This document shows, piece by piece, positions 20,902 through 26,228 of a stretch of 64,000 nucleotides of DNA (position 1 is the first letter of the stretch; the number at the start of each line of letters is the position of its first letter). Position numbers and translations under genes: made by a program. The stretch is from Nitrospirota bacterium (GTDB taxonomy: Bacteria > Nitrospirota > Leptospirillia > Leptospirillales > Leptospirillaceae), in NCBI GenBank assembly GCA_021826965.1, contig JAKAYA010000005.1, positions 1 to 64,000 on the forward strand, read 5' to 3'. A model generated the notes under the pieces. That model did no database searches. It saw only the letters and a list, made by a program, of their open reading frames with translations, and was not told where the DNA came from.

Positions 20902-21156
20902 CTAGGCGATCTCCTTGAGGACGTAACGGAAAACGACCCACAGGATGATGCCCGCCAGAAGAGTGACCCCGGCGATCAGCGCAGCCTTTGGACCAGCAAA
21001 GATCATATAGAAAAAAACGAACAGCAGAAAAAGACCGAGGACGAAGTAGACAAAAACTCTCACCCAGTCCCGAAGTGTCATTTTTTCTTCGTCGGCCTGG
21101 ACAGGTTCTGTTTCCACGTCTTTTTCACGGGTATCGGGCAAACCTGCCGGATCCAT
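20902..21156 (-). CDS. Small two-TM membrane protein
   Basis: MDPAGLPDTREKDVETEPVQADEEKMTLRDWVRVFVYFVLGLFLLFVFF...; start shortened from the 399-aa ORF that runs antisense to uvrC. Confidence 0.6.
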   Translation of the reverse strand: MDPAGLPDTREKDVETEPVQADEEKMTLRDWVRVFVYFVLGLFLLFVFFYMIFAGPKAALIAGVTLLAGIILWVVFRYVLKEIA

Positions 21157-21252
21157 CTGGAACCTCACTTCCAAAACAGAATGGTTGAGTCCTCTTTCTC
21201 GCGGGTCCCTATAGTATAATGAACCCATTCGGCAGAGAACAATGGAGGGAAC

Positions 21253-23151
21253 GTGACTAAATCGGAAAATCCTTCTGCAGATTCCCGTGTGTCCCCGCTC
21301 GAAGACCGTCTCCGGACACTCTCGGAGGAACCCGGCGTATACCTGATGAAGAGCGAATCGGGCGAAGTCCTCTACGTCGGCAAATCCCGGAGTCTCAAAG
21401 ACCGTGTCCGCTCCTACTTCCAGGAGACCCGAACCCGTTCTGCCCGAATCTCCCTTCTCGTCTCGCGTGTCTGGGACATCGAAATCATCCGGACCAAGAC
21501 AGAACTGGACGCGCTGATCCTCGAAAATACGCTGATCAAACGATACCGGCCGCGCTACAATGTTCTGCTTCGGGACGACAAGACGTATCCTTATCTGAAG
21601 TTCAGCTGGAACGACTCGTTTCCCCGACTGACCATCACCCGACGGGTCCGGAATGACGGGAACCTCTACTTCGGTCCTTACCCTAACCCCTCCGCGATGA
21701 AAGACACCTTGCGTCTCATTCGCCGGACCTTTCCCCTTGCCACCTGCACGATTCCTCTGGACAAGCCCACGCTCGAGCGTCCGTGCGTCGAATACCAGAT
21801 AAAGCGGTGTCTCGGTCCATGTGTCCAGGGATTGACAAGCGAAGATGAATACCGACAGGTGGCAACGGCCGTGAAGCTTTTTCTCCAGGGAAAAAGCAGC
21901 GACCTCCTGATGCTCCTGGAAAGGGAAATGAAGGCCTGCGCCAGGTCTCTCGAATTCGAAAAGGCTGCTGTCGTTCGCGACCGATACAGAAACGTCCTTC
22001 AGGTTCTGGAAAAGCATGCCGTCTCTTTTCCGTTCCAGCATCCGATTGACGGACTGTACCTCGCGCGCACCAGAGAACTCTCTCTCATGGTGGTTTTGCA
22101 TATCCGGAACGGACTTCTGATCGGGAAAAAAGAGGTCGAGCTGAAGAATACCGAGGATGCGCCGGACGCAGAGATCCTCGTCGCTTTCCTGGAACAGTTC
22201 TACGGGAAAGAATCCGCCTGTCTTCCGGGGGAAATCCTTCTTCCGATGCCCTTGCCCGAAGATGATCTCATGACCCTTTCCTGGATGTCCGAAAAGAAAG
22301 GGGAAGACCCCGTCCGGATCATCTTCCCAAGACGAGGAGACAAAAAAATGATTCTGGACCTGGTCAGGGAAAATGCCGAAGAAGCCCTTCGGGCAAGGGC
22401 GAAACGAAAAATCGCCCCCGAAACCCTGCTTGAAGAGACCCGGTCACTCCTGAACCTGGACCGGCTCCCGCACACAATGTGCTGCGTGGATATCTCCAAT
22501 ATAGGAGACCTTTTTCCGGTTGCTTCTCTCGTGACGTTTCAGGAAGGGCGTCCGGAGAAGTCTCTTTACCGGAAATTCCGGATTCGTTATGAAAAAGGCC
22601 AGGACGATTTCAAGATGCTGAGCGAAGTGATGGAACGACAGTTTGGAGAAAATCCTCTTCCGGATCTTCTGGTTATCGACGGAGGCCCCTTACAGCTCGA
22701 TGCCTGTGTCCGCACACTGAAAGCGATGGGGCATGCGGATGCCTCCCGGCGCGTTGTGTCGCTGGCCAAGGAAAGAGTTGCAAAAAACAAGATGGAACGC
22801 ATTTTTTTCCCGGGTCTGGATGCTCCCCTCGTCCTCCCAGGCCACCATCCCGTGACCCATCTGCTGGTCCGCCTGCGCGATGAGGCCCACCGGTTTGCCT
22901 TGAAATATCACCGGACTTTGAGAGAGGAATACCTCACGCATTCCAGACTTTTGAACATTGCGGGAGTGGGCCCGGCACGGGAGAAAAAACTCCTCCTTTC
23001 CTTCGGTTCTGTCCGGGGTCTGATGGAGGCGACGGTCGAGGAAATCGTTCAAAAGACAGGGCTTTCCACGATTCTTGCAGCTTCCATCCACCAGTCTCTT
23101 CGGGAACATCCTCCCGGCCCGGATCCGACAACCCCCGGGATGCCTTCATGA
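21253..23151 (+). CDS. uvrC: Excinuclease ABC subunit C
   Basis: GVYLMKSESGEVLYVGKSRSLKDRVRSYF; UvrC and HhH domains; GTG start after GGAGGG. Confidence 0.97.
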   Translation: MTKSENPSADSRVSPLEDRLRTLSEEPGVYLMKSESGEVLYVGKSRSLKDRVRSYFQETRTRSARISLLVSRVWDIEIIRTKTELDALILENTLIKRYRPRYNVLLRDDKTYPYLKFSWNDSFPRLTITRRVRNDGNLYFGPYPNPSAMKDTLRLIRRTFPLATCTIPLDKPTLERPCVEYQIKRCLGPCVQGLTSEDEYRQVATAVKLFLQGKSSDLLMLLEREMKACARSLEFEKAAVVRDRYRNVLQVLEKHAVSFPFQHPIDGLYLARTRELSLMVVLHIRNGLLIGKKEVELKNTEDAPDAEILVAFLEQFYGKESACLPGEILLPMPLPEDDLMTLSWMSEKKGEDPVRIIFPRRGDKKMILDLVRENAEEALRARAKRKIAPETLLEETRSLLNLDRLPHTMCCVDISNIGDLFPVASLVTFQEGRPEKSLYRKFRIRYEKGQDDFKMLSEVMERQFGENPLPDLLVIDGGPLQLDACVRTLKAMGHADASRRVVSLAKERVAKNKMERIFFPGLDAPLVLPGHHPVTHLLVRLRDEAHRFALKYHRTLREEYLTHSRLLNIAGVGPAREKKLLLSFGSVRGLMEATVEEIVQKTGLSTILAASIHQSLREHPPGPDPTTPGMPS

Positions 23152-26100
23152 TACTCGCAATCGCCATGGTTCTGGCCGGAACCGGATGGGTGATTCTGAC
23201 ATCCTTTTTCCGGACGGTTGTGGATCCCTGGTTCAACGCCTACCCGCTTCTGTCCGCGCTTGTCGTAGCAACCGTGCTCCTCACCTATGCCACGATTCTG
23301 CTCCTCGCCGGGAGCAATTTCGGAAAACCTCTGCCGGAAAAAAAGAAAGTCAAGGGATCTTTTTCCTCCACACCTCCCCTGTACTATATCCTCCAATGGT
23401 CGCTCGTCGGAGGTGTTTTCATCCTTTCCGGCTTCTTCACACTCGGTATGGTTCCGTATCTGTCCGGATTCCTGTGGCTCACCGGTACCGTCACATTGCT
23501 TTCCCAGCTCCTTTTCCTGATGATTCCCGGAAACTTCCGGCAAGAATCCGAGGCGGGCAAGGTGGACCTGATCCCGAATCGTCTCCGTCTCCGGGAGAAG
23601 GCCTACCACTTCTGGGACATGTGCATCATGGCCGGCGGTTTTTTCCTGGTGACCGGGGCGCTTTTGAAACCCATTTCCGTCGTTGCCGGACTCCTGTCAA
23701 TCGGGACCGGCTTTTCCTGGCTTCTGGGAGCCGTTTCTTTTTCCCTGGTCAGCACAGTCCACCTTTCCGGAGCGTTCCGGAAAAAGACACCACCATCATC
23801 CTATACGGTCCCGGAAGATACGCTTTCCGTCTTTCCCAGGAACAACCCGGCAAGGATCGCTCTGATCGAAGCCTATTCGGCCCACATGAATACCAGGTCC
23901 TTCTTCAGCTCCAAAAAGAACGGAATTCTCCTCTGGGGTCCTTCCGTCAAAGCTTGCCACACGTTCTTCCGGGCATTGGCCGGAGAGACGGGACGGGCTT
24001 ATATCGGGTTTGAACTGTCGTCCCTCCGGGGACTTTCGACTTCTGCCGTCGAGCACGAGATACGGAACATCCTTTACAGGATTCATCTGTATAAACCGGT
24101 CCTGGTCCACATCACCGACTACGAATCCTCCGTCCTGTCCATTTCCCAGCCGGAAAGGGACTCTGTCAAAAAACAACTGCTCCGGCTTTTGACACAGAAA
24201 CATGCCCTTGTCGTCATGGACGCGCGTCAGATCGAAGATCTTCCTCCCGAGTTCAAAACCCCTCCCGTCGTCCACTGGGTGATCGAATCGGGAGAATGCG
24301 ATGTTGCCACACGCATGACGTTCTTCCGTCTCTCTCTCAGGGAATTGGCCCGGAGAAACGAGCTTCTGCCCGGCCAGATTCCTCTTCTGACCCTCGAAAT
24401 GATCGATGGCTACGACTTGTACAAACTTGCGGAAATGACGGAAGGGTTTTCCCCCGAGGACATCGACGACGTCTTGCACCGGAGCCTCAAGAGCGCCCGT
24501 TCACTCCGGAGATCGCTGCGACAACTCGATATCGACGTGTCGATCCGCCGAAAAATGCAAGGATGGCAGGATCCGACACTCGAACCCATGGAGTCGGTGC
24601 GCGCACGTCTGACCGAAGAAGCGATCGCTCCCGCCCTTGTCATCAGCGCTTCCGAAAAGATCCTGAAACAGAAGCGCCATGCCAGCGAATCCCTGCTGAT
24701 CATCGGAAAAATTCCGAGCCTCCGCCAAAAACTCGCGCAGCTGCTGGCCCAAAAGGAAAATTACCACTTCTCCGCCATTGCCCAGAAAGAGTTCTCCCGG
24801 GACAGTCTGGGCACGTTCCGGAACTTCGTGATCCAGAACAAGAAACTTCGTCCCGCTGTCCTTTACGTCGACCCTCTGGAGCTACTTTTTCCGCGGGTCC
24901 AGCTTTCCCACTTCAGCTATCACGGAGAAATCTACAACCAGAAAGTGATTGAGCTCTCACAGGTTCTTCAGGAAAGACAGTTCTGGCTGATTTGCGGAAC
25001 TTCGGGCATCAACGACATCGATCCCATGATTCTCCGGAAGTTCTCGCGTGTGCTGGAAATCGGAGATGTCCAGAAAGAATTTCTTCAGGATGTCGAAACC
25101 TATGCGATGGAAAAACTTCTGGAAGGATTTTCTTCCGAGGATATCGACTTTTCCCGTTTTCACCTCTTCACCGGAGAGTTGTCCATGAAGAACCAACCGG
25201 CAGGGGAGACAATTCAGAAAACCTCGCCGACATTCAGCCTGGCCCTTCCTGAAGGAGAACCGCCCCCCATCCGTGGCTATTTTGGCCGGGAAGCCCTTCA
25301 GAACGAGATTCTTGGAATTCTGGAAGCGGGACGTCTGAAAATCCGCAAGGAAGGCTCGGGGCTTCGTGGAACATTCTTCTTTCTCGGACCTCCCCAGAGC
25401 GGCCGAAAGGCTCTTGCCCAGGCTCTTGCCCGTCAGGTATACGAAAACGAAGACGCTTTCGTCTATCGCGACATGGGCCTGTTCGACGAGCTGTTCTTTG
25501 CGGAACAGTTCCTGAAAAAACCCGTCTCGTCCTCGCAGACGAATCCGATTCTGCCAGACGACATCTGGGATGTCTTCGCCAAAAATCCTGCACGACTTCT
25601 TTATCTGGACAACGTGGAAAGGGCTCATCCAAGCCTCTGGACCGCCCTTCTCCCGGTGCTCCGGACGGGTCGCCTCACATGGCAGGAAAACGCGCGAAAC
25701 ATTTCCGACAGCACTTTCATCCTGGCGTCCGGTCTTTTTTCACCCCAGGAATTTGCGCAGGTCGACCCCTGGGAAAGACCGGACGTCATGATTCGGACCA
25801 TTCAGAACAGCAACAGAAGACTGGCCTACCTGCCTGTTTTCCAACCGACCTTTCTCCAGCACGTGGATCTGATCCTTCCATTTTCCGAGTATGGCACGGA
25901 AGAAATTCACACGATTCTCCGCCAGACGGTAACAGGGATTTTGCAAAATTTTGCAGAAAACTTCCCGTTTGAGGGGTCTCTTGCAGTGGATCCGGGACTT
26001 TTCGAGCAAATGATGTCAAAATTCGACATTCCCCGGAGAGGCATGGAGGGGATCGACCGAAAACTTGAAATCCTGCTCCTCCCCGCTCTGGCAAAGATTC

Positions 26101-26228
26101 GCGCATCGGCCGAAAGAGAGCCCGGTCCCCATAACTATGTCCTCTCCTGGGACGCGGGCGATATCACGCTCCGCCCTGTTGCTCCCCCCGAGCGACACAG
26201 CGAAGAAATGGCTACCACGACTCCCTGA
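23148..26228 (+). CDS. Large membrane protein with three degenerate AAA+-like modules
   Basis: Several N-terminal TMs; ILLWGPSVKACHTF; SLLIIGKIPSLRQKL; FFLGPPQSGRKALAQALA...LLYLDNVERAHPSLWTALLPVLRTGRLT (ClpB D2-like). ATGA overlap with uvrC. Confidence 0.7.
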   Translation: MILAIAMVLAGTGWVILTSFFRTVVDPWFNAYPLLSALVVATVLLTYATILLLAGSNFGKPLPEKKKVKGSFSSTPPLYYILQWSLVGGVFILSGFFTLGMVPYLSGFLWLTGTVTLLSQLLFLMIPGNFRQESEAGKVDLIPNRLRLREKAYHFWDMCIMAGGFFLVTGALLKPISVVAGLLSIGTGFSWLLGAVSFSLVSTVHLSGAFRKKTPPSSYTVPEDTLSVFPRNNPARIALIEAYSAHMNTRSFFSSKKNGILLWGPSVKACHTFFRALAGETGRAYIGFELSSLRGLSTSAVEHEIRNILYRIHLYKPVLVHITDYESSVLSISQPERDSVKKQLLRLLTQKHALVVMDARQIEDLPPEFKTPPVVHWVIESGECDVATRMTFFRLSLRELARRNELLPGQIPLLTLEMIDGYDLYKLAEMTEGFSPEDIDDVLHRSLKSARSLRRSLRQLDIDVSIRRKMQGWQDPTLEPMESVRARLTEEAIAPALVISASEKILKQKRHASESLLIIGKIPSLRQKLAQLLAQKENYHFSAIAQKEFSRDSLGTFRNFVIQNKKLRPAVLYVDPLELLFPRVQLSHFSYHGEIYNQKVIELSQVLQERQFWLICGTSGINDIDPMILRKFSRVLEIGDVQKEFLQDVETYAMEKLLEGFSSEDIDFSRFHLFTGELSMKNQPAGETIQKTSPTFSLALPEGEPPPIRGYFGREALQNEILGILEAGRLKIRKEGSGLRGTFFFLGPPQSGRKALAQALARQVYENEDAFVYRDMGLFDELFFAEQFLKKPVSSSQTNPILPDDIWDVFAKNPARLLYLDNVERAHPSLWTALLPVLRTGRLTWQENARNISDSTFILASGLFSPQEFAQVDPWERPDVMIRTIQNSNRRLAYLPVFQPTFLQHVDLILPFSEYGTEEIHTILRQTVTGILQNFAENFPFEGSLAVDPGLFEQMMSKFDIPRRGMEGIDRKLEILLLPALAKIRASAEREPGPHNYVLSWDAGDITLRPVAPPERHSEEMATTTP

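Follow-up and report, generated by a model that had tools for sequence, protein, structure and literature searches.

A Leptospirillum family membrane protein with three AAA+ modules lacking the catalytic glutamate: a putative non-hydrolysing scaffold

We describe a conserved membrane protein of the Leptospirillum family in which six predicted transmembrane (TM) helices are followed by three AAA+ modules, the Walker B catalytic Glu being replaced in all three modules in the 19 aligned orthologues. We lean towards a model in which this protein acts as a membrane-anchored, non-hydrolysing AAA+ scaffold specific to the family, its AAA bodies oligomerising and its conserved surfaces binding a partner or client. 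The gene was found in the window, i.e. the whole stretch of 64,000 nucleotides analysed here, which is part of a genome assembly of 2.2 Mb being 89% complete. The open reading frame is intact and encodes 1026 amino acids:

23148..26228, + strand: whole ORF of the six-TM, triple pseudo-AAA+ protein, single copy in 21/21 family genomes

Membrane domain and AAA+ modules

The domain organisation is as follows:

23151..23771, + strand: N-terminal membrane domain with six predicted TM helices, from hydropathy, loop charges and the model; only in the Leptospirillum family
23811..24509, + strand: module 1, classical AAA (p97-like), residues 222-454; PDB profile p97 D2 E 3e-26, AAA-core secondary structure
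24603..25217, + strand: module 2, classical AAA (VCP/p97-like), residues 486-690, the lid being one helix; VCP E 3e-11, Pfam AAA in 19/19
25260..26177, + strand: module 3, ClpB-D2-like AAA+, residues 705-1010; Pfam AAA_2 1.1e-10, ClpB D2 E about 2e-24

A preliminary description, made from the sequence of the window, had proposed N-terminal TM segments followed by three AAA+ modules, and both were recovered. Family-averaged hydropathy yields six TM segments, placed by the model at residues 2-31, 33-58, 78-98, 103-124, 152-173 and 178-208, with positive charge in the loops 54-80, 125-152 and after 205. This positive-inside pattern suggests an N-in orientation with the AAA modules being cytoplasmic. 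On the outside, hydropathy and predicted topology give very short loops, leaving almost no periplasmic ones. A profile of the TM domain found no relative in the PDB, and a composition of three repeated hairpins was rejected, hhalign giving a probability of just 0.5-3.5%.

The AlphaFold2 model of the full-length protein, calculated with 19 sequences, reached a mean pLDDT of 76.5 and a pTM of 0.36, the latter making the relative positions of the modules unusable. All three modules show the AAA-type strand-helix order in this model, and each has the alpha-beta-alpha AAA+ core by profile or fold, so that the AAA+ fold was found in each of the three regions by sequence profile and by structure prediction. 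The nearest Foldseek matches of the whole model are ClpC/ClpB/Hsp104 (E 4e-19). In the window protein Pfam identifies AAA_2 (1.1e-10) and AAA (4e-8), which together with the profile matches of the three modules puts AAA+ homology far above coincidence. Module 2 folded alone gave a pLDDT of 84.4 with p97 D1 as best Foldseek match (E 6e-7, TMq 0.52), and hhalign aligns modules 1 and 2 with one another (E 1.7e-5). The lid segments earlier assigned to the ends of modules 1 and 2 were recovered in part: for module 1, Pfam AAA_lid_3 (0.011) and a p97 alignment running through the lid give weak support, and for module 2 the model contains a single helix, 638-658, followed by a poorly predicted linker.

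Modules 1 and 2 resemble p97/VCP/CDC48 in forming two tandem classical AAA modules, sequence-related to p97 D1/D2. In contrast to these, the pseudo-AAA+ protein is membrane-anchored, has lost Walker A and B in modules 1 and 2 and has a third, ClpB-like module added. The window protein has no Pfam match to the p97 N domain and carries TM helices instead.

Loss of the catalytic residues

The catalytic positions were placed by HMMER alignments to PDB sequences (p97, VCP and ClpB D2) and counted over the 19 aligned orthologues:

23937..23960, + strand: degenerate Walker A of module 1, GPSVKACH, family GxSxxGR[T/N/K]; Lys position R in 17, C in 1 and Q in 1 of 19
24096..24122, + strand: degenerate Walker B of module 1, PVLVHITDY, family xxxYIENY / xxxIxDY; DE pair T/P/V/E/D then D/N
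24705..24728, + strand: lost Walker A of module 2, GKIPSLRQ, family GxxxxxR; second Gly and Lys missing in 19/19
24852..24875, + strand: Walker B of module 2, YVDP, Asp kept and Glu replaced by an invariant Pro; D575 and P576 in 19/19
25035..25037, + strand: invariant Arg630 of module 2 in an SRH-like DPxIxR; 19/19, aligned with the p97 Arg-finger region
25386..25409, + strand: Walker A of module 3, GPPQSGRK in the window, GxxxxGK[K/R/L/M/I] in other species; Lys in 18/19 plus L022
25515..25556, + strand: place of ClpB pore loop 1 (GYVG) in module 3, here KKPVSSSQTNPILP, from the ClpB and family alignments; no aromatic residue
25596..25613, + strand: Walker B of module 3, LLYLDN, Asn for the catalytic Glu; D821 and N822 in 19/19
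25857..25862, + strand: Arg-finger position of module 3 (ClpB 'NR'); position variable, no conserved Arg

The P-loop-like blocks quoted in the preliminary description are present at residues 264 (GPSVKACHTF), 520 (GKIPSLRQKL) and 747 (GPPQSGRKAL), as is LLYLDNVERAHPS. None of the modules shows a Walker A of the form GxxxxGK[S/T] or a Walker B of the form hhhhDE, the DE position being occupied by TD, PD, VD, EN or DN in module 1, by DP in module 2 and by DN in module 3. The P-loop Lys is missing from modules 1 and 2 in all 19 aligned orthologues, with R at the module 2 position, and none of the 19 has a fully intact Walker A and B. An Arg-finger is absent in module 3, and module 2 retains the SRH-like invariant Arg.

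Module 3 differs from the other two in its P-loop. Both Gly residues are kept in 19/19, and 19 of 20 orthologues retain GxxxxGK, among them L022 (GTGK), a twentieth sequence read in addition to the 19 aligned ones; Ser or Thr does not follow the Lys position in any of the 19 aligned sequences. The window species alone carries an Arg (codon CGA, 25404-25406) in place of this Lys at residue 753. A point sequencing error is unlikely here because CGA is at least two changes away from a Lys codon, and judged from the aligned sequences the loss is a late or recent, local event in the window species. The family-wide feature is the loss of the catalytic Glu and not that of the module 3 Lys.

These counts refine the earlier proposal of three inactivated modules. 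Its observation of three deviating P-loops holds for the window species; in module 3 of the 19 other orthologues read, the Lys is kept. The DN in place of DE in the module 3 Walker B turned out to be invariant (19/19), and the loss of Lys and Glu in all orthologues, put forward there for checking, applies to Glu in every module and to Lys in modules 1 and 2, but not to the module 3 Lys. We consider the protein to be better described as having three non-hydrolysing modules, one of them probably binding ATP in most species.

Module 3 aligns with the D2 domain of ClpB/Hsp104/ClpC from the P-loop through the strand following the Arg-finger, but it has DN for DE and lacks Ser/Thr after the Lys, the Arg-finger and the GYVG motif. 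The protein differs further from these in being membrane-anchored and in lacking the ClpB N domain, the M domain and a Clp-type D1, and it scores 47.6 bits with the NCBIfam ClpB model versus a curated cut-off of 1232. As the modules have lost the residues needed to hydrolyse ATP and, as far as checked, also the substrate-gripping pore loop, the protein is not expected to work as a threading unfoldase.

The module 3 P-loop opens the alternative that this module is still a slow ATPase or an ATP switch, driving conformational change through the dead modules. GxxxxGK in 19 of 20 species and the invariant Walker B Asp speak for it, and the retention of Lys and this Asp in most species also counts against a scaffold, as does the ATP hydrolysis by certain AAA+ proteins despite unusual motifs. 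However, the catalytic Glu is an invariant Asn, the Mg-coordinating Ser/Thr, the Arg-finger and the pore loop are all missing, and in the window species the Lys is gone while the gene remains intact, so that we regard residual ATPase or switch activity as quite unlikely.

Distribution and selection

A search of 60 relatives revealed full-length orthologues in 20/20 other family genomes, with an identity of 36-57%, and partial matches of the ClpB/ClpC type only in the 40 genomes outside the Leptospirillum family. In two genomes (G002 and G020) the gene is divided over two contigs, which we read as assembly breaks. A profile search of 295 Nitrospirota found the protein full-length or nearly so in 21 family members; it is absent from the other 274, which gave only module 3 matches to what look like ordinary Clp ATPases. 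The TM domain alone was found in just the 21 family genomes among 148 searched. Within the searched Nitrospirota the protein hence appears to be specific to the Leptospirillum family.

Several origins were considered and rejected. Profile searches inside Nitrospirota found nothing outside the family that matches the full length or the TM domain and could represent an intact ancestor within the phylum. Single-sequence searches gave generic Clp matches and nothing closer in phages, and no relative of residues 1-694 in plasmids. As for a defence system, the window protein has no PADLOC match, and one orthologue has weak generic AAA matches only. A search of the open literature for papers on the protein found nothing.

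All modules are under purifying selection: pairwise dN/dS of close pairs is mostly 0.04-0.14 in every module, and for the most distant pair (window versus L004) it is 0.14-0.20, with dS near saturation. The lowest values are usually found in module 2, whose active site has degenerated furthest. Mostly low dN/dS, usually lowest in the most degenerate module, suggests the protein being kept for a non-catalytic reason. The loss of the catalytic motifs could also be expected of a decaying pseudogene; we give this reading practically no credence, as it is ruled out by the dN/dS values, the ORF is intact in all but the two fragmented assemblies, and 154 residues are invariant at an identity of 35-56%. 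Neither is the protein a decayed copy of the sole membrane AAA protease, since a separate FtsH is encoded in 20/21 family genomes.

In the 19-sequence alignment, in which 15% of columns are invariant overall, the conservation peaks fall outside the active sites:

24873..24962, + strand: most conserved stretch, PLELLFPRVQLSHFSYHGEIYNQKVIELSQ, 20/30 columns invariant
24510..24602, + strand: invariant linker between modules 1 and 2, RxLRQLDxDVxIRxKxQxxxDPTxxPM, 18/31 columns invariant

The strongest peak, residues 576-605, begins at the end of the module 2 Walker B. The second, residues 457-486 (17/30 columns invariant), is in the linker between modules 1 and 2, a region having no catalytic role in AAA proteins. 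Both stretches are candidate contacts to a partner or to the protein itself.

Genomic context

21253..23151, + strand: uvrC, upstream and translationally adjacent across the whole Leptospirillum family

In the window, the two genes overlap by four nucleotides (ATGA), start codon on uvrC stop, an overlap that the preliminary description had noted. This junction is conserved: each of the 20 orthologue junctions read has uvrC immediately upstream in the same orientation, with the start at -4, -1 or +2 nt relative to the uvrC stop. Farther upstream of uvrC the compared loci have genes in common that we take from their sequences to be ftsY, ybeY-like and phoH-like; downstream of the pseudo-AAA+ gene four genera share what is presumably a thiC-metH-like order and a fifth has another. 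Gene neighbours apart from uvrC vary, and as the downstream ones differ between genera, it is the pairing with uvrC that has lasted. Different genes come after uvrC in 30 other Nitrospirota, the close followers being by eye presumably glutaredoxin-like, inositol-phosphatase-like or endonuclease-IV-like. The pairing is hence family-specific, and what it documents is coupled expression and not a shared function; the earlier term "coupled to uvrC" holds as a statement on gene organisation only.

The tight start-stop junction in 20/20 orthologues read would fit a joint role with UvrC in which the protein ties nucleotide excision repair to the membrane. We judge this very improbable, as the protein has no DNA-binding or repair domain, the uvrC of other Nitrospirota lying beside unrelated genes shows that uvrC needs no such partner, and such gene pairs often reflect shared expression only. 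The variable neighbourhood beyond uvrC points to no partner for a scaffold either and counts against that reading as well.

Two further observations concern this genome. A short hydrophobic ORF, MTLRDWVRVFVYFVLGLFLLFVFFYMIFAGPKAALIAGVTLLAGIILWVVFRYVLKEIA, lies on the minus strand at 20902-21250 (the end of ORF 20902-22101), divergent from uvrC and between an aroE-like gene and uvrC, and a family of small ORFs of 84-148 amino acids occupies this position in 6/8 loci compared. Moreover, the genome encodes two AAA proteins of ~600 amino acids with intact Walker motifs, which we take to be Mpa/ARC-like: L056 (G000:C97:47000-50500) and L057 (G000:C20:30500-33500), the latter ~16 kb from ftsH on the same contig.

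Discussion

The AAA bodies are kept, the motor chemistry is lost and dead modules with known roles exist elsewhere; together these favour a membrane-anchored scaffold. The scaffold or assembly factor proposed in the preliminary description is thus supported as the best reading, with no aligned orthologue having intact Walker motifs and none of the three regions lacking an AAA+ fold. According to this model, the six TM helices would hold the protein in the inner membrane with the three AAA+ modules in the cytoplasm. The AAA bodies may drive oligomerisation, probably into a ring, and at the membrane a partner or client would dock onto the conserved non-catalytic surfaces at residues 457-486 and 576-605. 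Module 3 may in most species keep an ATP bound, as a ligand with a structural or sensing role, without turning it over. Against this model, the pTM of the full-length model makes the module arrangement unreliable.

Three systems offer parallels. FtsH and the plastid FtsHi/Ycf2 proteins are likewise membrane-anchored AAA proteins, and Ycf2-FtsHi is among the module 2 fold matches; in plastids, the FtsHi belong to a membrane AAA complex as enzymatically dead members (PMC8197885). The pseudo-AAA+ protein differs in being bacterial, in having six TM helices versus two or so and in carrying three AAA modules per chain; no M41 peptidase domain was matched by Pfam in the window protein, the FtsH of the genome being encoded elsewhere. 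EccC/EssC of type VII secretion also combine N-terminal TM helices with several P-loop domains in one chain, and some of the EccC P-loop domains, e.g. the DUF domain, are degenerate and do not bind ATP while still being needed (PMC11154593). Here the EccC domains are of the FtsK/HerA type and not classical AAA or ClpB-D2, and EccC D1 is active; FtsK/SpoIIIE is not among the Pfam results for our protein, and no ESX genes were seen beside its gene. ATAD2/Abo1 likewise contains an AAA module without nucleotide-binding motifs, its second one (AAA2), which forms an inert base of the ring (PMC10539301); ATAD2 differs in being soluble and having an active AAA1. ATAD2 AAA2, the EccC DUF domain and plastid FtsHi suggest dead AAA modules serving as assembly bases or regulators.

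The most interesting alternative, which we consider unlikely, is that the protein is the inactive member of a mixed complex, where it anchors or regulates an active AAA+ protein of the same cell (FtsH, one of the two proteasome-type ATPases or ClpB) and perhaps provides an Arg in trans from module 2. The invariant Arg of the SRH-like DPxIxR in module 2, the presence of FtsH and the two Mpa/ARC-like ATPases in the same genome and the Ycf2-FtsHi complex among the module 2 fold matches would agree with this, and a precedent exists in the inactive FtsHi subunits beside FtsH12 in chloroplasts (PMC8197885). However, the gene is not linked to any AAA partner, the three-module architecture does not fit the one-ring geometry of FtsH, and the module 2 Arg could be kept for structure alone.

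Taken more broadly, a motorless three-module membrane AAA+ body could, as we tentatively propose, serve the entire bacterial family in one of two ways, as a fixed platform on the cytoplasmic side of the inner membrane or as one subunit of a mixed AAA+ complex; if true, it would have its counterpart in plastids, in the dead AAA subunits of the Ycf2-FtsHi import motor. Pseudo-AAA+ proteins are a known kind, single dead AAA modules being known beside live ones in p97 relatives, ATAD2, EccC and FtsHi, and it is the architecture that is new: here every module of a conserved bacterial membrane protein is devoid of the catalytic Glu, yet all are under strong selection. The protein offers a clean example from nature for the question of what use an AAA+ body has when it does not turn over ATP, and the window species, in which the last P-loop Lys is gone too, is a natural comparison with its Lys-keeping relatives. 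The finding marks an uncharacterised conserved membrane component of extreme acidophiles used in bioleaching and suggests that in these relatives of the iron-oxidising Leptospirillum the parts of a motor now serve as a scaffold and not as an engine.
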